Origin: Liolophura sinensis
Lineage: Eukaryota; Mollusca; Polyplacophora; Chitonida; Chitonidae
Length of the DNA: 64,000 nucleotides
Direction of reading: 5' to 3'
NCBI RefSeq assembly: GCF_032854445.1
Contig: NC_088295.1
Coordinates: 74,366,028 to 74,430,027 of the forward strand
Shown one piece after another: positions 32,103 to 64,000 of this stretch. How positions within the stretch are numbered: position 1 is the first letter of the stretch; each line of letters opens with the position of its first letter. The position numbers and the translations under genes were made by a program. The notes under the pieces were generated by a model. It saw only the letters and a list, made by a program, of their open reading frames with translations, was not told the DNA's origin and made no database searches.

Positions 32103-32702
32103 TTAGTTGAAGAACAAGCGTTTGTCATCGTACTCTCTCTTCTCTAAAAAGCCTCGCTTATTACCCATTCCTCGCTTATCGCCAAATCCCCTCTTATCGC
32201 CAAATCCCCGTTTGTCACCGAATCCCCGTTTGTCTCCATAACCTCTTCGATTGAAAAATGCTCTTTTGTCTCCGAAGCCTCTTTTGTCGCCGAATCCCCG
32301 TTTGTCACCGAAACCTCTCTTGTCACCAAATCCACGCTTGTTGAAAAACAGTCGTTTTTCACCGAATTCTCTTTTGTTTCCAAAACCACGAACGTTCAGG
32401 TCTAGTAAACCTTCTTCTCCCAACGCTTCTAACACTCTTTCTCTTTTATCTCCATGTCCTCGTTTGTCACCAAAACCTCGCTTTGGATAAAAGTCTAAGT
32501 GTCCTTCTTCTTCACTTTCTTTAATTCCCTCTGCTAAAAGTTCTTCAACTTTTTCCGACAACTCGTCCAGTTTTATCTCGTTTGGCTCGCTGTCTTTCAA
32601 AGTGGACTCGCTGTTTGCGCCACAGAGAACGGCGGGGACCAGGAAGACAGCTGATTGGATGAGCAGATAGTGGGCGGAGAGAGCCATCATGGCGGCTTTC
32701 AT
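32103..32702 (-). CDS. Achatin-type (GFGD) neuropeptide precursor
   Basis: A 199-residue secreted prepropeptide in one exon. The ATG at 32702 follows an in-frame TAG in genomic DNA. Residues 1-32 look like a signal peptide (MMALSAHYLLIQSAVFLVP core), 33-73 are an acidic spacer, and from 76 on come tetrapeptides separated by KR or RR. There are eight GFGD (76, 124, 130, 136, 142, 160, 166, 172) plus GHGD, GYGD, GFGN, GMGN, EFGE, GFLE, EYDD, AFFN and two LFFN, the last forming the C-terminus. An 18-residue linker (88-105) separates the first two peptides from the rest. No amidation glycines precede the dibasic sites. Achatin peptides (GFAD in the snail Achatina, GFGD in others) act on a GPCR and are active with D-Phe at position 2. 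D-isomerisation cannot be seen here. Family identity is strong; processing is inferred. Confidence 0.92.
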   Translation of the reverse strand: MKAAMMALSAHYLLIQSAVFLVPAVLCGANSESTLKDSEPNEIKLDELSEKVEELLAEGIKESEEEGHLDFYPKRGFGDKRGHGDKRERVLEALGEEGLLDLNVRGFGNKREFGEKRLFFNKRGFGDKRGFGDKRGFGDKRGFGDKRAFFNRRGYGDKRGFGDKRGFGDKRGFGDKRGMGNKRGFLEKREYDDKRLFFN

Positions 32703-33214
32703 GACAGCGGCACAGGTGGCTTCCAATCCTCGTCTCTAGGGCAACTTCCGCTGGATGCGGTCTGTTTTACGTCACTCTAAAACATAGGTTCAATATACAT
32801 TTGATTACTGCATTACCTATCTCCTATCCACCACCTCTACCTGGCTAAATAATGGTAAAGATTCCCCATGCATGAGCAGATTCATGTTCCTCTGAATGTG
32901 CTTGAGCACGATGGGTTTTGCGTTAATGGGAACCAAACTGTCGCAATAAACCATCACACTTCCCGAAGTACCTGATAAACCTCCTAACAAAGCCACAACC
33001 AGAGCTAGATTCGAGCCAGCGACCTCAGAAACGATGATTAGGAATGGTTCGACTGACGCGTGCATTGTTCTTGTGTTCAAAGTGCAAACAAATGCCCTGC
33101 AGGGAATTCTACAAGTACAAGAATTAAGTTACCATTTTGCTGAGGGGTAGAAATGTTAACTTTTTGTGAAATTAAAGACATATTAGTATATAGAAAAGGT
33201 GGAGAACCTCCAAA

Positions 33215-53800: not shown

Positions 53801-56516
53801 GACAATACAATGTTCACGACGAGATAGAAGGTTGTGTAGCTCTCTGCCTGAGGAGAGTACATGTATCTTTGATGTGCTCTCCTCACGACAGACCATACAA
53901 GGTCTACAGTTTGACGAGATGGAAGGGTATATAGCTCTGAGGAGAGTACATGTAGCTTTGATGTGCTCTCCTCACGACACACCATACTTGGTCTATAGTT
54001 TGACGAGATGGAAGGCTAGTTAGCTCTCTGCCTGAGGAGACTACATTTAGCTTTGATGTGCTCTCCCTAAAACAGACCATACAAAGTCTATAGTTTGACG
54101 AGATGGAAGGCTATATAGCTCTCCTCACGACAGACCATACAAGGACTGTAGTTTGACGAGATGAAAGGCTAGTTAGTTCTCTGCCTGAGGAGAGTACATG
54201 TAGCTTTGATGTGCTCTCCACACGACACACCGTACAAGGCCTATAGTTTCATAGATGGAAGGGTATATAGCTCTCTGCCTGAGGAGAGTACATGTAGATT
54301 TGATGTGCTCTCCTCACGACAGACCATACAAAGTCTATAGTTTGACGAGATGGAAGGCTATATAACTCTCTGCCTGAGGAGAGTAAATGTAGCTTTGATG
54401 TGCTATCGAGATGGAATGTTCGATGTGCTCGCAAGCTTTGATGTGCTCTCGTCTCGACAGACCATACACGGTCAAAATATTCACAACGAGATGATGGCTA
54501 TATAGTCTTCTATCAGAACAGAGTAGCTTGAATGTACACGATCTCTCGTCACGTTAAATCATAAACTCCTGTCTGTTCACAGGTAAATTCAAGGTTGTTG
54601 TTCTCTAAGTGTTGAGAGTGGCTTTGATGTAGATACATCGCTGTTTGTAGTTTACGTGTACCAAAGTACATCCAGGACAGTGTCGCAACAATGACATTTG
54701 AAGTTTTTTTTATCACTGATACACATATATGTTACCGACCGCCACTATACCTGTTATCAGAATGGGTTCAAGTTTAATAGTACACTTCATATTCTTTATT
54801 ACTTTGACCTGATTTGAACACCGGAAACAAACCTGGCTATCTGTGTCATCTTTGAGGTTTGCTAGTTCAGTTTGTTCTGCTTATCCAACAGAGCCACCCA
54901 GTTTAGAGGTGTTCTTCTTTTGGGAATGATGTAGATTTACTGTTTTTACTAGGTGCATTTTTGATATACGCATGTGACCGAACATCAGCCAATTGCTTTC
55001 TTGTAACTAAGGAATCGAGCTTTTATATTGCCCTTTGTCAGATTTCAACGTTTGTGAGTTAAGGTTTTAGTGCCCAGTGTTTCACATGTTTCACGTGTAG
55101 TTAGGATTTTTTAAGAAAATTCTTCCCACACCAACTCTCTTATGTTTTAACTTCTCGGTTTTTACGTTCTGACTTTTGCTTAAAAGTCTCCCGGACGGTT
55201 CTCAATAAATCAAACAACTAAACAAGACATGTAAGCATTCTCTTTAGATTTAGTTTTGTCCCCAACTCTGCGCAAATGCCAACGAAAAAACGCCTGTGGA
55301 TGTGTAGTCTGATATATTCTTAATCTTGATACGCAATTGTTTAAAGTTAAGGAGAAAATGATTTCCCATGTTATACCTGTAAAATATATCTGAACTCAAC
55401 TCCAAGTCTTTGAGAAAAGACTGAGAAAATTCTTCCGAATCTGATATTATACACTGTAACAGCCTGCTTTGCAAGGAAATCATCGTGGCAACCATTGTTG
55501 AAGTGTTAACATTTGTATAATCCATCAAGTGATAATACCGAGTCTTCCCCTTCCATGCTTAGTTCATTGAATACAGTGTAAGATGTCACGTCATGTGACA
55601 TAATTTCTAACGCTGTTTCATTTGAATTTCATTTTATTTTCAATTATATATGCGTTTTATAAATGAAACTTTCCAGACTCAATTCAGGACAACCCATGAG
55701 TAAAGATTTACATTATAGGATGTCTTTCTTTCACCGATCTTACGGAAAAGTAGAGATGTGAAGGAAGTGTTGCTAACAGGTTGGTCTTGGGCTAAGTATC
55801 AATCAATTAAATTTTGGTGGTGATCAGAATCAATATACGGCTCAAGGCATGTTCAATTCTTCACCACTGGCAAAAGGAGAGAAATGCAGAGTATTGTCCT
55901 TTTGATATGGATGGATTAACAGATATAGCCCGGAGTAGTTTTGGCGTCATCAACTGTTGGCGATGAAGTGACGAACGTCTGGCACTTAAACGTTTACTCG
56001 CAATCAATATTTATGGAAGACAGGCGAGCGATGTCAAACAAATTTCACATTTGATCATCTAAACAAACATGCGTCAGTTACTGACGGTTTATACGCGTAA
56101 TTTAAATTGCCACCAATGACTCGGGAACAGTGCGTGCGTGAAAGTCATGGAATAACATTTTGGCAAGATGAATGTAAAAATTTAGGTTCACTATGTTATT
56201 ACTTGATTATTTTCTGTTTTAGGGCCGAAAATGGACATTGTTGTTGTCCATAATTGTGACGTGTGTGCATGCCAAAGCGGTGGACTCCGATGATTTGTCA
56301 TGGAAGATAGACGGAATCAAATATTCCGACATCCCTGTGGAGTTTCGACTAGCCGCTTACATGCTCGAGGTACGCTCTAACCTCTTGGCATGTCGACACA
56401 GATCTAGGGATTTACCAGCCACTTGTCCAAATCAAGAATGTGTGGATGTTTTGAAGAAATATGAAGACTGGCGAGAAGCAAATGGTTATGGTATTGCCAG
56501 CGGACGATGGGGCTAA
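50823..56516 (+). CDS. Small secreted peptide precursor with C-terminal amidation signal, two exons (inferred join)
   Basis: Exon 2 (56223-56516) is open from its acceptor and lacks a sensible start of its own, but begins with a hydrophobic signal core, TLLLSIIVTCVHAKA. Exon 1 (50823-50837) supplies MKVLQ before a GTAAGA donor at phase 0, which completes an ordinary signal peptide (1-24). The result is 102 residues. The mature region (25-102) has three cysteines (62, 73, 78), a dibasic KK at 83-84, and ends ASGRWG-stop. After carboxypeptidase and amidating enzymes this would give a 17-residue peptide from Tyr85 to Trp101-amide. AATAAA lies at 56676-56681. I do not recognise the family. A neuropeptide or peptide-hormone role is inferred from architecture only. 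The exon 1 choice, 5.4 kb upstream, is the weakest part. Confidence 0.55.
51479..53645 (-). mobile_element. Decayed non-LTR retrotransposon (LINE), 5'-truncated
   Basis: Minus-strand frames show reverse-transcriptase blocks in order with frameshifts: SAAPGLDGIRMSILK (about 53450), MAFDRASHTILLNELEHHGF (53125 on), APQGSILGPILFLLYINDI (about 52960) and FANDT (about 52870), where the family has the catalytic F/YADD. A C-terminal part (about 52415-52050) has ILPLFRSKYI. The 3' end has ATCAAATCAAATCA-type repeats near 51480. A SINE is inserted in the 3' region (51617-51832) and a SINE fragment abuts the 5' break. Jockey/CR1-like by general appearance. It is dead: reading frames are broken and the catalytic motif altered. 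It lies in the intron of the secreted-peptide gene. Confidence 0.82.
51617..51832 (-). repeat. SINE family A, near full length, inserted in the LINE
   Basis: Starts with TTTATTTATTTATTTGATTT. Contains the tail, ACGACGGCGGCCACATTACG, GGCAGAGCCCGGGGG, GAGCTGGACTTCAACTCACA and the head (GGTCATTGCGCCGCGCTGGC). A short stretch around the CGTACGTGGGAAGG body is deleted. Confidence 0.9.
53628..53754 (+). repeat. SINE family A, 5' part
   Basis: GACCCAGTAGCCTCTCACCA, GTGAGTTCAAGTACAGCTCA, CTACGGCCGTACGTGGGAG and GTCGTGGGTTTCCCCCGG, then broken at the start of the minisatellite region. No tail. Confidence 0.88.
53795..54500 (+). repeat. ~95-bp satellite-like tandem array
   Basis: About eight imperfect units of GAGATGGAAGGCTATATAGC, TCTCTGCCTGAGGAGAGTAC, ATGTAGCTTTGATGTGCTCT, CCTCACGACAGACCATACAA and GGTCTATAGTTTGAC. 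Some units are shortened (one is about 57 bp). Open frames on both strands are a result of the repetition. Confidence 0.9.
54501..56222. other. Unannotated 3' part of the secreted-peptide gene intron
   Basis: AT-rich DNA with no recognisable exon or repeat copy. The minus frame at 55250-55528 has no motif. Alternative first exons for the 56223 exon could lie here; I did not find a convincing ATG plus donor. Confidence 0.35.
56223..56516 (+). CDS. Secreted peptide gene exon 2 (terminal)
   Basis: Acceptor ATTATTTTCTGTTTTAG. The frame reads GRKWTLLLSIIVTCVHAKA, then the mature region with LLACRHRSRDLPATCPNQEC (three Cys) and finishes YGIASGRWG-TAA. The intact frame, signal core and Gly at the very end argue for a real exon. 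Confidence 0.72.
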   Translation, partial: GRKWTLLLSIIVTCVHAKAVDSDDLSWKIDGIKYSDIPVEFRLAAYMLEVRSNLLACRHRSRDLPATCPNQECVDVLKKYEDWREANGYGIASGRWG

Positions 56517-57497
56517 GTCCCAAGCTGAAGGAATGGAATGCAATGTGCTCTAAGACAATTTAATGTTCGTTGTGTTGCTGATGTGGTATCGCCAGTTTAT
56601 AGCATTTTCTTTTTGACTAGTACGCAATCTTTCCCTTTTATAAACTGCAAACAGCAAAAGGAACAATAAGAGGTTAATAAATGTGCTAAGTTTTTAGGTT
56701 TTGTCTTCGTTACAACAATGATAAAATTTGATTAAAATAATTCAGTTACAAAATCTTAAGCAGTGTTTTTAAGCACGTCGATTTTAAAGAACCGATAGGA
56801 CAGTTTACAATTTCCTTGCAATGTAGAGTTGTTAACAAAGACAACATCATACGAAATGACATTATGGCACTGTTTTATGTCATATTTTCTTTCAATGTTC
56901 TTGATGTGAAACTGGCGAAATCCAAAAGTTTACTGCCTACTAAACAACTTTTAATACAAATCACATGGTGTTATTCTATACAGGACATGACGGGGGCAGA
57001 ATTAGTGGGAGCTTTCTTCATTAAGCCACACGTCATATAGCATTTGACAGATGCGTTATTTTGATAGTGGGGTTTCTTTGTTACGTGTAAGTCTGTACTT
57101 GAAGCAGTCTGTTTGCCATCTGGTATTCCAAAAGATAAAGGTAAATGACTTAAATATTTCCTTGTTCACCAGTTGATGAAGTTATTATATCTCAGCATTG
57201 CGCGCTTATGAAGTTGTCACTTCTTATCATGTACGTATTAACGATGTTAAAAGAAAAATGTTAACAATGTATAACACATTCTTACTTCCCCTCCCCCACC
57301 TCCACCACTTCCCACGACTGAAAAATACTGATGCCAGTTGTCTAACTCCGAGCATTAAAAGTCATGCTTTAGAATTGGCTTTAATACGGACTACGGCACA
57401 TCTTCACTGCATCACGATAAAACAGGCGTGAAACTTTTATATTATATGCAGTCATGGAAAACTGTAACAGTCTTTAAATTTTTATCTACCTTCTTTG

Positions 57498-57622
57498 GAT
57501 TATTTATTTCTACATTATTTGATTCTTGTTTTACCTCATGCTCAAGACTTTATTCCTTATATTCGATGGCGGTCATCTTATGGATGAAAGAAACCGGACC
57601 GCTATGGGATAATCCACGAAAC
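57498..57622 (-). repeat. SINE family A copy, strongly decayed
   Basis: ATTATTTGATTCTTGTTTTA, CTCAAGACTTTATTCCTTAT and GGATGAAAGAAACCGGACCG follow the family-A tail and body with many changes. One of the oldest copies here. Confidence 0.65.
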
Positions 57623-58383
57623 TTTAGTAAGATTTCCTACCTGCGATATACAGACGTGCACACCATACTAGTCAATAAGAACAACGTGTATTCAATGAAC
57701 GGTAAGACTGCGCAAGCTTCTCCTCGAGCGTTTTCCCACCTCTTATTGCACCTCTTATCGTGTGTTTATTTAAAACCCATTTGCTCTGTACTTTATCTGT
57801 GCTGATATTGGGATTTACGTCTGACTTAACCTTTAATCCATTTATTCACTAGTAACCGTCCCAGGAGAATAGTATTCATGCCGCTGCCGGGTGAAATGAG
57901 TGAAGCACTACTATAACTCTTCAGCGATAAGGTGTCATCCTCAAACTCAGAACGTAAATAACTCCCTTAAGTCATTTGTTTGATCGATTTTGTGATTAAG
58001 AGCTGTCTAAATCAGACGTGTTTGCCTTCGTGTTAATCTTCAGCTTTAACCCTTGTTGTCCTGTTGGTATTTTCAGACCTTACAAAATGACATGCACAAC
58101 AACTACTTTTTGAGTACCTTATGGAAGCTTATGAGGTTATCATATATGATGCTAAATTTAGCCAATAGAGCGAAGATAACTGTCATGTTTATTAAGCAAT
58201 GGAATGGTTGTGACACAGATGTCTGTTTTTAGCTAGATTAGGGCTGCTACCACATGTCACTTCAACACTGACCTTGAGTTTGAGGTGATAACTCAATTAG
58301 TTTTGCTGTTGGCCTGCTTTAATTGTACACCTTGTTAGACTACTGTTACCTACGCAAAGAAATTATGCTTTAATTTGTTTTCT

Positions 58384-58440
58384 GTCCGTATGTCTGCCTG
58401 TCTGCATGTCTGTCTGTCTGTCTGTCCGCCTGCCTGACTG
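58384..58440 (+). repeat. (GTCT)n microsatellite
   Basis: GTCTGTCTGTCTGTCTGTCC with flanking GCCT/GCAT variants. Confidence 0.9.
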
Positions 58441-58555
58441 TCAGCAGCCCCAAGGAAATGTCATGAAAGGATTTGGATGAGGGCTTGGAAGCAAACATGA
58501 ATCCACTGAGGTCACCATTATAAGATAGTACGCAGTACAATAGTATTGCCTCTTT

Positions 58556-59090
58556 GTAATGGGGGAATTTGTCCCTTTGTCTGTAAAATGGGAGAATTTG
58601 TTCCTTTGTCTGTAGTGGGCGAATTTGTTAATTGATCTATAATAGGGGAACTTGTTCCGTTGTCTGTAACAGGGGAATTTGTTCCTTTATCTGTAGTGGG
58701 GAGGATTTGTTCGTTTGTCTGTAGAGCGGAAATTTGTTCCTTTGTCTGTAATGTGGGAATTTGTTCCTTTGTCTGTAGTGGGCGAATTTATACCTTTGTC
58801 TGTAGTGGGGGGGGGGGGGGGTCCCTTGTCTATAGTGGGGAAATTTGTCCCTTTGTCTGTAGTGGGCGATTTTGTTCCTTTGTAGTATGGGAATTTGTTG
58901 CTTTGTCTGTAGTGGGCTATTTGTCCCTTTGTCTGTAGCAGGAGAATTTGTTCCCTTTGTAATGGGAGATTTTGTTCCTTTGACTATAGTATGGGAATTT
59001 GCTCCTTTGTCCGCAGTCTGGGAATTTGTTGCTTTGTCTGTAGTGGGTTATTTGTACCTTCGTTTGTAGTGGGGGGGATTTGTCTTTTTA
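58556..59090 (+). repeat. ~27-bp minisatellite, about 20 units
   Basis: Units of GGGAATTTGTTCCTTTGTCT followed by GTAGT, with a run of G at about 58808-58820. Open frames across it are repeat artefacts. Confidence 0.93.
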
Positions 59091-59719
59091 GCTGTGGCAG
59101 ACGTTTGTGTTCTTAGACTGCCCTCTCAGGCTGCTTTTTCATTTCACAAAACACAACATACAGGCTGCAATTCGCACGTAAGTACGTGTTTATGCACCTG
59201 TATATATAAGCATGTACCGGTGAAAGAATTTTTGGACAGATATCTGAGGGTTACATCACAATTTGATTTCTACAGAGACACAAGTCACTTGATAATGGAA
59301 CAGATGAACTGTGGCATTGGCATTCCATTTTTGGCTACGAAGTTACGAAGTTTAAGCATTGAGCTAAATAATGGAACTACATATACACATTAACATTTAG
59401 CATGTAAGGGTTTCCTTGTAATAAGAAATTCGATGGACTAAAATATCTTGCGCTATTTGAGGGGCAATATGGAATCCAACATCCAACAACTCTTTCATCT
59501 GTCACCTCCATTTACAATTCCCACGATAATGAATATGGCGGCCCTTATCCTCACTGATCACCCACTGATCAGACACCAGAGCATGCACGGGGTTATGATT
59601 CTGATTGCATTATACTTGAAGGCTAGATGACCGAAATAATTTGAAGTCGACACCTTTAGATATAGACTCTATACAGATTTAGAGATTAATTTATATCTGA
59701 CGAAAATGGTGATCACTTT

Positions 59720-59725
59720 TTTATT
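59720..59725 (-). terminator. Poly(A) signal of the defensin-like gene
   Basis: AATAAA on the minus strand about 155 bp beyond the TAG stop at 59880. Confidence 0.45.
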
Positions 59726-59879
59726 ATTTACTCGACATTTCCAGACCCATGGCAGGAAAGCCGATTACAATATATTCCCGGATGTCCCTTGGTTTCCGCG
59801 GTATTGGTTGTACAGTACAATGGTTGACGATACAGTTTTCTAAAGTGACTTTAGTTGAGGATTTGTGCATTGGTTGTGA

Positions 59880-60004
59880 CTAAGCCGGAAGACAGCAGAC
59901 GGAACCACTGCCGTTCCCGTCACAGCTGTAGCTCGTGTCTTCCACAGTATATGTTCCCAATGGACAGGATGCTGCACAGATTCCGCCGCCATCACTGATG
60001 CATC
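59880..60004 (-). CDS. Defensin-like gene exon 2 (six-cysteine domain)
   Basis: Acceptor CCATATGTTACAG. After completing Arg72, the exon encodes CISDGGGICAASC, PLGTYTVEDTSYSC and DGNGSGSVCCLPA-stop. The whole domain sits in this exon. Confidence 0.8.
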
Positions 60005-61401
60005 CTGTAACATATGGCACCAACAGTGACATGTACAACATGTACGGTAGCAAATTTGCTCAACCTTGGAAAAATACGAAATTATAAAATAAATGTTTAG
60101 AAGACATCTGAATCTAAGCGTCAAGTCCGACATTCATGAATCACTCGTAGTGCATCAAGACGGGTCCGAGGTCGATAATCGCAAGACCCACTTCCAAATG
60201 TTCAGTAATTTTTACTTTCGTTCTTTTGCTGCTTTTGTAAAACGTTGTTTTGAAAAATGGTCTTGGGATTATTGGCTTGGAATCTCTGTTATGGTTGACA
60301 ACGGGTATAAGATTGTATCTTACGATATCTAAATTTACTCCCACTCCATCCATATTAACAATGATGGTTAAATGTGTGATTTGTTTTACGGTATACAACT
60401 GCAAGTGCACACATTCTTACATTGTGAACACGGAACACACGATGAATATTTTTACGTGAAATGAATAACGACAAATGCTCTGTGAATTTTCTCCCTACAT
60501 GCATGGGACATGGAGGCACTTATATGCTCTGTTTATTTGTTTATTTATTTATTTGATTGGTGTTTTTCTCTTATACGGCGGCGACCAGCATTATGGTGAG
60601 AGGAAACCGGGCAGAGCCCGGGGTAAACCCACGACCATCTGCAGGTTCTTACAATACTTTACATTTCATCAATGCGATACACATGTATTTCCCACAAAAT
60701 GCTTTAACGTTTTCTTTTCCGAATTTTGACGAATTCACAGATTTAATTTCGTACCAAAGTCTTTTTCACACGGTTAGCGGCAATTAGCTGGGAAATATTC
60801 CCCACAAGTGAATTGCAGATGGTGGAAAATAAAGTAAGGCTAATGAACGTCATGTTAGACCACTTTAACTGCCATTAGAGAGCTTTTTAACGCCAGTTGC
60901 CACCTAGGGCTCGTGGACATAGGGACGTGGGGTAAAATTTCATGCATTTTTAAATGAAGCCATTTACTGTATTCCCGCTAACGTTTAATTGACACTTTTC
61001 AAATGCCACAAGCTGCTTGATGTTGATTGATTCATTTACCTTATTGTGCCACATAAAGTTCAGTTAATTTCTTGTTACAAAAACTTAAGCATTAGCATCA
61101 AAAGTGTTATTTTAAGGCCTTTATGTGCTTCTAAATGTGGATTTTTACATACCTAGCTATAGGTTAAGTACAGTAAGATTAACTTACGTTCCGCGGGAGC
61201 AGGAGTAGGCGCTGGTACCGCGGCCGCGGCGGGTGTCGTCACAGGCGCGGGTGTTGGGGCTGCGGCGTAGTTATCACCACCTCCATTATAGCCACCTTTG
61301 TAACCGCCTTTGTAGCCACCTCCTTTGTAACCACCGGTGCCGGCTGAGGCCAGACACACGCACACGGTCATAACGGCCAACGTTACCAGCAAAGCATTCA
61401 T
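59880..61401 (-). CDS. Glycine-rich secreted protein with C-terminal six-cysteine beta-defensin-like domain, two exons
   Basis: Exons 61401-61188 and 60004-59880 join at phase 1 (GT-AG) into 112 residues. Residues 1-20 are a clear signal peptide (MNALLVTLAVMTVCVCLASA). Residues 21-44 are Gly/Tyr/Lys repeats (GGYKGGGYKGGYKGG type), and 46-70 are almost only Ala, Pro, Thr and Val. Residues 73-112 hold all mature cysteines, at 73, 81, 85, 99, 108 and 109. The spacing is C-x7-C-x3-C-x13-C-x8-C-C, close to that of invertebrate big defensins (x6, x3, x13-14, x4-7, CC) and vertebrate beta-defensins. The separate terminal exon for the cysteine domain also resembles big-defensin genes. Big defensins have a hydrophobic N-terminal domain instead of this Gly- and Ala/Pro-rich stretch, so it is either a divergent member or a new chimera. 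The domain is not strongly cationic. Antimicrobial function is inferred; a shell-matrix or mucus role is an alternative. Confidence 0.8.
60535..60648 (-). repeat. SINE family A fragment in the defensin-like gene intron
   Basis: TTTATTTATTTATTTGATTG, CTTATACGGCGGCGACCAGC, GAGGAAACCGGGCAGAGCCC and CCATCTGCAGGTTC. A short deletion removes the CGTACTCAAGAATATTTCA part, and the head is absent. Confidence 0.9.
61188..61401 (-). CDS. Defensin-like gene exon 1 (signal peptide, Gly-rich and Ala/Pro-rich part)
   Basis: ATG at 61401 follows TTCTGTTTAGA. A TTTAG two bases before it could be the acceptor of an intron in the 5' UTR. The exon ends GCGGAAC|GTAAGT, phase 1. Confidence 0.82.
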
Positions 61402-61758
61402 TCTAAACAGAACGGTATTCCGCCAATGATACAAAAAAGTGAAAGACAAAATCTGAAAATAGGGAGTTTATAAATTGGCAGAAGGTAGGTATTGACAGAT
61501 TGTTTTAATTAACTCTATACCTGCGTCATGTATAACGATTTCTGTTCTACCTGTTTGCATTGCCTTACCTGTTTTTCTAACTATACAACCAATCCCTTTC
61601 TCATTTAAACCTAACTGGTGACAAAACAGATCATTCAGTACACAGCACCAGAGCACAGGGATCGTTGTAGGAATGTGGGGGCGTTTTGACATCACTCTCC
61701 TGGATACCCAGAGAAACGCTATTGACCATCTTTAGGCAATGCTACGAATAACGGTAAA

Positions 61759-61827
61759 CTTATTTATTTATTTCATTGGTGTTTTACGCCGTACTCAAGA
61801 ATATTTCACTTATACGACGGTGGCCAG
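61759..61827 (-). repeat. SINE family A tail, left arm of inverted pair
   Basis: TTATTTATTTATTTCATTGG through GCCGTACTCAAGAATATTTC to ATACGACGGTGGCCAG. Pairs with 61958-62051 in inverted orientation. Confidence 0.9.
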
Positions 61828-61957
61828 TGTGCGTATGCCTGTCCTCACAAAAGAATAACAGTAAACACACACAACTTGTACGACTATTTAGTAATGCAAT
61901 GATTAGGATACATGCTAGAATTCTATCAGATTTTATTGAGGAGACTATTGCTCAAGA

Positions 61958-62051
61958 CCCGGTTTCCTCCCACCATAATGCTGGCCGCCGTCGTATAAGT
62001 GAAATATTCTTGAGTACGGCGTAAAACACCAATCAAATAAATAAATAAATA
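61958..62051 (+). repeat. SINE family A tail, right arm of inverted pair
   Basis: ACCCGGTTTCCTCCCACCAT, GCTGGCCGCCGTCGTATAAG, GAAATATTCTTGAGTACGGC and an AATAAATAAATAAAT end. Its last ~65 bp are the near-perfect complement of 61759-61827. Confidence 0.9.
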
Positions 62052-62204
62052 TTGCTCAAGACCAAATCTGAGAGAGGGGGCAAACAAAACAACCCCAGAC
62101 TAGCCATTGTGCGTGTGCGTGTGCGTTGCTGTGTGTGTGCAGCGGGTCGGGGGATGGGTGGTGGAGGGTGGGGCATCTTCCGTCCCTTCCGCCTTCCCCA
62201 TTTT

Positions 62205-62328
62205 ACTTATGATTGAGTGCTTGGCGTTTAACGTCGTGCTTATCAATTTTTCTGTCATATCACGACGAAGGAATCCTGAGAGTGCACGTAATGTGCCTCC
62301 TTGTTGCAGGACGGATTTCCACCGTTCT
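62205..62328 (-). repeat. SINE family B tail, partial tandem duplicate
   Basis: GAGTGCTTGGCGTTTAACGT, TCATATCACGACGAAGGAAT and CTCCTTGTTGCAGGACGGAT, then interrupted by the start of the next copy at 62331. Confidence 0.85.
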
Positions 62329-62330
62329 TA

Positions 62331-62655
62331 GAGTCAGTGCTTGGGGTTTAACGTCATGTTCAACAATTTTTCAGTCATATGACGACGAAGGAATCCCTAG
62401 TGTGTATGTAATGTACCTCCTTGTTGCAGGACTGATTTCCACCGCTCTTAGATCTAGTGCTGCTTCACTGAGACGCCTTACGGAATGCAAGTAAGTCGCC
62501 CGAGCCATTATACTGATACGAATCAACCAGTCGTTCATGCTGAACGCCAAGCGAGGAAGTTACAACTTTCTCTTTAAAGGTCTTAGGTGTGATTCGATCT
62601 AAGATTGAGCCTGCATCTACCGCTCCGGAAGCGGACGCTCTACCAACTATTGGTC
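62331..62655 (-). repeat. SINE family B, near full length
   Basis: AGTGCTTGGGGTTTAACGTC, TTTTTCAGTCATATGACGAC, the CTAGTGCTGCTTCACTGAGA block, AGCGAGGAAGTTACAACTTT and a tRNA-like head (CGCTCCGGAAGCGGACGCTC). Confidence 0.88.
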
Positions 62656-64000
62656 ATTTCGCTTAAGAATTGTCGTAATTATATTCATTTTCAAATGAAG
62701 AACTATCTATAGTGATCTAGTAGACTTATGGTGTTTCATTAACTAAAGATAGCCATAGTTACTCAATGCAGAAGCAGTTTATTTAGGTGTTCTTTGTTAT
62801 GTAGGCTTATATGTCAATTTACCAGTAATTAAAATTAATATACATTTCTTCCGAACAAACGCACGAACATGCAAAGAAACAATGGAAATGGCCAAGAGAG
62901 TTTATACAGCAGCCTACGACATTATGCTATTAACAGCAGGTTGACATGATGAAAAGCATACGCGCAAAGACAAAGGCGAAAGAAAAGATAAAAAATGAAT
63001 AAAATAGACCTTTTGAATAGGCAATAACCTTGTCCGATACATGGTTAATATATCTGGGCATCGTATCAGATCTTTGTGTACCAATCTTCAAACGTCCAGT
63101 CATACGTTTTCATTCATTCAATCGTCCAGAATGAAGATTAAATGTCAATAATCGCATTGTCAAATTTCCAAAACAAGAAAAACCACCAAAGAAATATAAC
63201 GCATATCAATTTATAAATTAATACGGAGCCATGTAAAGAGAAACAGTGTCTGTATCAAACACTATGATAGTTTATAAGTTGTCTTTAATCGAAATACATT
63301 TATCTATCTCACATATGCCACATACCCAACGTAGCGATTGTGTTCAATGCGATGCATAGATGCAGCCCTCAAAACCTCGTTTTCAGTGTATTTAGGCACA
63401 GCTTTGAAGCGGCAAAATATCTGGACGGAAGAAGGAATTGTTCTCATTGTAAAAGTTAAGAAACTCTCAAGGAAGGCGTTTGATAGAAAATCCAATATTT
63501 TACAATTAAACACATGTTTTATTCACACACAGGCATGTATCTAGACATTTGCATCGTTCCATAAAATGTACACCAAAACAACAATCCTCCTTGTCATAAT
63601 TCATTGGAATACAATCCAATGACCCAACAAAAGTATGTTGTTTTCTACAGTCAAGGTCGCCTAAAATTCGACTTGTACTATGCACCTAATTTACATTATA
63701 ATTATTTCATTATAGGTATTTATAGTCAGTCAGTATTAACTGATCGAATTCGTAACTTCACTTTTCGATCCCTGTGTGTGTGAAAACATCTGTGCAGATA
63801 GGTGCATGGGTCTGTGAAGGTGTGTCCTGGCGATTTTCGTCTGGCCAGACTACTCCGCCCAATTGTATCACCAGTATCACACGCCGTCACATATCTGTCT
63901 TCAGATGTCCTTGCCAGTTCCTCTTTTAAGTTAAATCCAGATTTATACCCACTTGATACATTTGAAAATATCAACGGCGATACACATAGCAATTCTAGGC

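Follow-up and report, generated by a model that had tools for sequence, protein, structure and literature searches.

A tandem array of two-exon genes in the chiton Liolophura sinensis: a conserved six-cysteine exon behind diverse low-complexity exons

The two-exon gene and the array around it

The stretch of DNA analyzed here (the window) comprises 64,000 nucleotides of scaffold 1 (C1, 74.37–74.43 Mb) of the chiton Liolophura sinensis and contains, on the minus strand, a two-exon gene (G1) with a predicted product of 112 aa. Coding exon 1 (61188–61401, minus strand, 214 nt, donor GTAAGT, phase 1) encodes a hydrophobic, signal-like start, Gly/Tyr/Lys-rich repeats and an Ala/Pro/Thr-rich linker. 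The signal peptide-like stretch MNALLVTLAVMTVCVCLASA (aa 1–20, 61342–61401, minus strand) reaches a 10-residue hydropathy of 2.82; this call comes from a hydropathy scan without a dedicated predictor, and the cleavage site was set by eye. In the translation it is followed by the repeats GTGGYKGGGYKGGYKGGYNGGGDNY (aa 21–45, 61267–61341, minus strand), with YKGG units, and by the linker (aa 46–71, 61189–61266, minus strand), which ends in PAPTPAPAE. A predicted GT-AG intron of 1183 bp (60005–61187, minus strand, phase 1, GTAAGT...TTACAG) leads to exon 2, whose coding part with the stop codon (59880–60004, minus strand, acceptor TTACAG) encodes the terminal six-cysteine domain CISDGGGICAASCPLGTYTVEDTSYSCDGNGSGSVCCLPA with a short tail, LPA. 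The core of this domain, delimited by a pattern scan and by comparison of its spacing with paralogs, is C-x7-C-x3-C-x13-C-x8-CC (59892–60002, minus strand). A TATA-like element, TATAAA (61467–61472, minus strand), precedes the ATG by 71 nt. The start of an AATAAA polyadenylation-like signal (59720–59725, minus strand) is 157 nt away from the stop codon, counted from its first base.

The earlier note on this DNA had described two exons with GT-AG sites, a phase-1 join, the same intron, a hydrophobic start, YKGG repeats, an Ala/Pro stretch and a terminal domain with cysteine spacing 7-3-13-8-0; all of these are present in the sequence, and the exon order recurs in the paralogs described below. 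G1 thus has the looks of a real two-exon gene for a secreted protein. As a DNA query, its exon 1 matches only itself in the genome, in a search that skips simple repeats. Rfam searches of window positions 54000–64000 revealed no RNA element with an E-value of 1 or below, and at loci L007–L014 and L016 nothing, iron-responsive elements included, exceeded the gathering score.

Elsewhere in the window (32103–32735, minus strand) there is an open frame with a hydrophobic start and many short repeats flanked by dibasic sites (GFGDKR, AFFNRR, LFFNKR). It resembles a neuropeptide precursor and has no Pfam match over the cut-off.

G1 is one of ten loci, nine open and one broken, that lie within 89 kb (C1:74,425,907–74,514,676); the open genes are G1 in the window, G2–G5 and G7–G10, and the broken copy is G6. 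Searched against the genome, the six-cysteine domain of G1 gave six matches, all at C1 74.426–74.504 Mb, and with four divergent members as queries three further exons came to light, all of them within this stretch; these protein-search counts of array exons are lower bounds. A six-cysteine pattern identified eight exons in 143,973 bp (the window and 80 kb beyond it), one of which, that of G3, had come up in no protein search. This pattern matched only twice in total across 20 block-shuffles of 173,973 bp, so its eight occurrences in the real sequence are more than expected by chance. A looser pattern, carried 30 kb further, gave 11 matches, i.e. the nine array exons and two cysteine-rich frames antisense to the G7 repeats, which were dropped. 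In a crude scan for frames that combine a hydrophobic start with low complexity and a phase-1 donor, none of three candidates passed at window positions 1–58,000, and six of 11 did at 58,000–150,000 (the same numbering carried beyond the window), all six being array members; the same scan missed G5, G9 and G10. Judged from sequence, G1 is therefore a member of a local, tandemly duplicated family. The combination of a low-complexity front with a six-cysteine exon, described in the earlier note, is thus no one-off fusion in G1 but recurs across a ten-locus array.

The broken copy G6 (L005; C1:74475607–74476376) has frame breaks in both exons and is a pseudogene, which points to birth and death of copies within the array. 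We found no description of the array by title or abstract opening in the literature searched, which covers few subscription journals, so the array may have been described elsewhere.

A conserved exon 2 and a variable exon 1

In all nine open genes the six-cysteine exon begins, behind an AG, 2 nt before the codon of the first cysteine, and a low-complexity exon 1 with an ATG start lies upstream on the same strand; the start of exon 1 was found to be hydrophobic by the scan in eight of them and by eye in G5. With the exception of G3, exon 1 can be joined in sequence to the cysteine exon via a phase-1 donor (8/9 open genes), G9 offering two candidate donors. G3 is a doubtful member of the array: a strong phase-1 donor is missing towards the end of its 880-aa repeat ORF, and its cysteine exon stands furthest from the others, having 4–7 of 25–26 non-cysteine positions in common with any other member. 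In comparison with the rest of the array, the score of the G3 cysteine exon was reached in 0/1000 loop shuffles.

Among the six-cysteine exons of seven genes (G3, G10 and the broken G6 were left out), pS exceeds pN in 21 of 21 pairs (pS 0.56–0.98, pN 0.16–0.41), and synonymous sites are near saturation. The module is thus old and constrained, and these comparisons indicate that it is under purifying selection. For exon 1 of G1 and G2 (45–50% identity) the corresponding values are pS 0.65 and pN 0.23 over 57 codons.

The fronts encoded by exon 1 are of very different composition, which extends from Gly/Ala/Pro to Thr/Glu and Ser/Asp. Those of G1 and G2 combine Gly/Tyr/Lys-rich sequence (GYKGG) with PAPTPAP, those of G4 and G10 have TPAP repeats, and that of G5 is rich in Ser/Thr/Pro; G7 has Thr/Glu repeats (TTTEEM, net charge -77), G8 and G9 are GPQ-rich, and G3 has Ser/Asp/Glu repeats with RRKR sites (net charge -143). 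PAPTPAP or TPAP stretches are common to G1, G2, G4 and G10, which is weak evidence of kinship, because the comparison was made with the low-complexity filter off. The array fronts suggest to us that an ancestral linker diversified in situ, and speak less for unrelated exons having been captured.

Some members have further features of their own. The G3 frame (L009; C1:74450858–74453497, minus strand) has a hydrophobic start and many repeats of ~60 residues with poly-Ser, SESDEED and DSGSDS blocks, most of which end in RRKR, a furin-like site; it is strongly acidic and resembles phosphoprotein matrix proteins. In G4 (L010) the six-cysteine domain is followed by a C-terminal Arg/Asn repeat tail (RRNG/RRNS; C1:74466228–74466407), and G7 has a basic tail, too.

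Exon shuffling, which the earlier note had put forward as the origin of G1, is not shown by the array, whose members have the architecture in common. The kinships of the two exons do look different: exon 1 of G1 is nearest to that of G2, whereas exon 2 is nearest to that of G5 (22/31 non-cysteine positions, vs 13/25 with G2). The AU test on exon 2, made on a tree without G3 (a separate tree was built with G3), nevertheless does not reject the grouping of G1 with G2 (p 0.39). As trees of the 40-residue module are also poorly resolved in their branching, shuffling inside the array is neither demonstrated nor excluded.

Comparison with big defensins

Big defensins (horseshoe crab, 2rng; oyster, 6qbl and 8bgk) resemble the array in having a C-terminal six-cysteine domain of close spacing. 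It is 6-3-13-4-0 in these three proteins, compared with 7-3-13-8-0 in G1; the closest paralogs are G2 (6-3-12-4-0) and G9 (7-3-13-4-0). Phase-1 introns often flank secreted modules. Such an intron directly precedes the cysteine exon in the array, as it does in big defensins and beta-defensins, and the six-cysteine domain of big defensins is described as lying in the last coding exon behind it (PMC7203481). The earlier note had pointed out both the near-match in spacing and the cysteine domain set apart in a last exon of its own, joined in phase 1, and both are borne out. G1 differs from big defensins in its longer C4–C5 loop and in the absence of their hydrophobic N-terminal domain, in place of which exon 1 encodes low-complexity sequence.

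In the residues between the cysteines, neither loop shuffles nor hhalign showed the array to be clearly similar to four big defensins: the observed scores were reached in 768, 1751, 1678 and 1779 of 2000 within-loop shuffles, and the profile comparison gave a probability of 1.6% (E 0.032). When all loops were shuffled together, the scores were reached in 134, 120, 172 and 343 of 2000 cases, a weak tendency; in the positive controls, in which each family was compared with itself, loop shuffles reached the score in 0/1000 each. The core net charge is -6 to 0 in the array, and negative in 7/9 members, vs +1, +3, 0 and 0 in the four big-defensin cores.

A whole-genome search with the horseshoe-crab (2rng) domain did not find the array and matched two other places. 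One of them (C1:48155979, E 8.4e-5, pattern CAERNGWC...CGKFYCC) lies in what looks like a canonical chiton big defensin gene (L019; C1:48151001–48157500) with the cysteine exon CAERNGWCREECRQTEVIAWKYKDICGKFYCC. By eye, a frame ~1 kb upstream of this exon has the motif ATVGPxVW, as in the hydrophobic domain of 2rng, and the acceptor lies 17 nt before the first cysteine, vs 2 nt in the array. In a second chiton species, Chiton olivaceus, a transcript of a big defensin has been reported (PMC7203481). The other match (C8:31991982, E 0.03) was rejected: it ends without the final CC, and the frames around it presumably encode a membrane transporter. Likewise, the single whole-genome match of Defensin_big, on C7 and below the cut-off (17.8 bits, E 2.44), was judged to be due to chance.

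Pfam gave nothing over the cut-off in G1, G2, G4, G5, G8, G9 and G10, scanned whole, or in the cysteine exon of G3, which alone represented that gene; G7 was not part of the scan. The sub-threshold rows were Chorion_3 (E 0.094), DEC-1_N (E 1.2) and MUCL1 (E 4.8), which may reflect composition only. Pfam is a weak test here, because it missed the chiton's own big-defensin-like gene too (neither half gave Defensin_big). A PDB sequence search with array members found no match of weight. Six cysteines ending in CC also characterize the clip domains of arthropod proteases; among the array members scanned there is no clip row in Pfam at E up to 10, and there is no protease domain.

The AlphaFold2 model of the six-cysteine domain, predicted from a single sequence, is too weak (pLDDT 66) for its four strands to weigh for or against the 1-5, 2-4, 3-6 pairing and three-stranded sheet of big defensins and beta-defensins. 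Its structure neighbors are not convincing (the best Foldseek hit has E 1.1, and the VIA Z-score does not exceed 2.6), and no defensin occurs for this weak model in the best 50 of 73 Foldseek rows or in the 22 VIA rows listed; Foldseek rows for Pacifastin, with E of 1.9 or worse, were put down to chance. Descent of the array from a big or beta-defensin, as envisaged in the earlier note, thus receives no support from the loop shuffles, the profile comparison or the genome searches, and what speaks for the name "defensin" is only the cysteine spacing and the phase-1 intron.

Possible roles of the array proteins

G1 has more the looks of a structural material protein than of a proven antimicrobial defensin. 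We consider it somewhat probable that the G1 product is small, secreted and mostly disordered and belongs to a chiton extracellular material, its family having expanded locally in tandem; the shell plate, girdle sclerite or cuticle, radula and mucus are candidate sites. We infer that array transcripts are spliced and their products secreted and disulfide-bonded. Exon 1 of each member would then contribute the signal peptide, followed by a quickly changing low-complexity region on which the physical chemistry of the chain depends: Gly/Tyr/Lys in G1 and Thr/Pro/Ala mucin-like or acidic Ser/Asp/Glu in other members. From exon 2 would come a conserved six-cysteine module, locked by disulfides and placed at the C-terminus or close to it. 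This module could fold the end of the chain, resist proteolysis, and anchor or cross-link the chain, with either a partner or the chain itself as its target.

G1 has a signal-like start (according to the hydropathy scan) followed by a repetitive low-complexity region, as do the repetitive low-complexity secreted proteins of molluscs. Such proteins of mollusc secretomes, shematrins among them, combine a secretion-like start with Gly/Tyr-rich or acidic repeats, as array members do; the conserved six-cysteine module in a separate exon sets the array apart from them. Chiton radular teeth matrix protein 1 (RTMP1) is, like G1, secreted and predicted to be disordered, with Gly-rich repeats, but differs in its length (539 aa) and its Gly/Ser-rich, Trp/Phe-rich and His-rich regions, and the portion of the source at hand describes no six-cysteine module in it (PMC6351634). 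Mollusc mantle secretomes are reported to be rich in repetitive low-complexity secreted proteins that are lineage-restricted and fast-evolving, in which acidic repeats are said to bind calcium (PMC4897951), and a chiton genome is reported to have silk-like genes, several of them highly expressed in the girdle (PMC7850002). One point against a matrix role is that low-complexity secreted proteins occur outside mineralized material, too.

An antimicrobial role of the array proteins is possible. In this reading, which we regard as unlikely, the six-cysteine module would be a highly diverged trans-defensin of the big-defensin or beta-defensin type (pairs 1-5, 2-4 and 3-6), low-complexity sequence would have taken the place of a lost hydrophobic N-terminal domain, and the proteins would act on microbes in mucus or haemolymph. 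Tandem arrays with pseudogenes, such as this one, occur in many immune families. The cysteine spacing, with its best near-matches in G2 and G9, and the weak tendency in the all-loop shuffles are also consistent with defence, as is the phase-1 intron before the cysteine exon, described for big defensins and beta-defensins in a paper that proposes the combination of this exon with diverse upstream leaders (PMC7203481). The within-loop shuffles and the hhalign probability argue against it, and so do the 2rng query, which finds an RNGWC-type gene elsewhere on the scaffold, and the different acceptor position. The negative charge of most array cores is a weaker contrast: the charge of big defensins is reported to range from anionic to cationic (PMC7203481), so an acidic domain is compatible with defence.

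It is also conceivable, though improbable in our estimate, that the array encodes proteins of a mucus or adhesive, whose members of opposite charge would condense together with the Gly/Tyr/Lys-rich ones and be cross-linked by the six-cysteine module. The Gly/Tyr/Lys-rich G1 and G2 do adjoin the polyacidic 880-aa ORF and the Arg/Asn-repeat tail of G4, and sandcastle-worm cement is described as a combination of basic DOPA-bearing proteins with the phosphoserine-dominated Pc-3 (PMC9783952). This likeness to tube-worm cement is, however, an analogy of composition, and we found no papers on chiton mucus or adhesive in the literature searched. That the two exons are never joined, or that G1 is a non-functional copy in decay, is very improbable: G6 is indeed broken in both exons, but G1 has good splice sites and TATA-like and AATAAA signals, its paralogs keep the identical two-exon order, and both exons bear signs of purifying selection.

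The odd single fusion thus gives way to a compact family that holds a disulfide module constant while the repeat region diversifies. We would also raise, as a speculation of low probability, that a trans-defensin-like module became the fixed C-terminal anchor of a chiton extracellular-material toolkit, leaving the neighboring exon free to diversify. If this were true, one array with a single constant module could yield chemically complementary matrix or adhesive polymers, as the neighboring exon could turn Gly/Tyr/Lys-rich, mucin-like, polyacidic or Arg-rich. The array is a good place to watch composition change in material proteins or defence peptides, and it offers about ten candidates for studies of chiton shell, radula and mucus.
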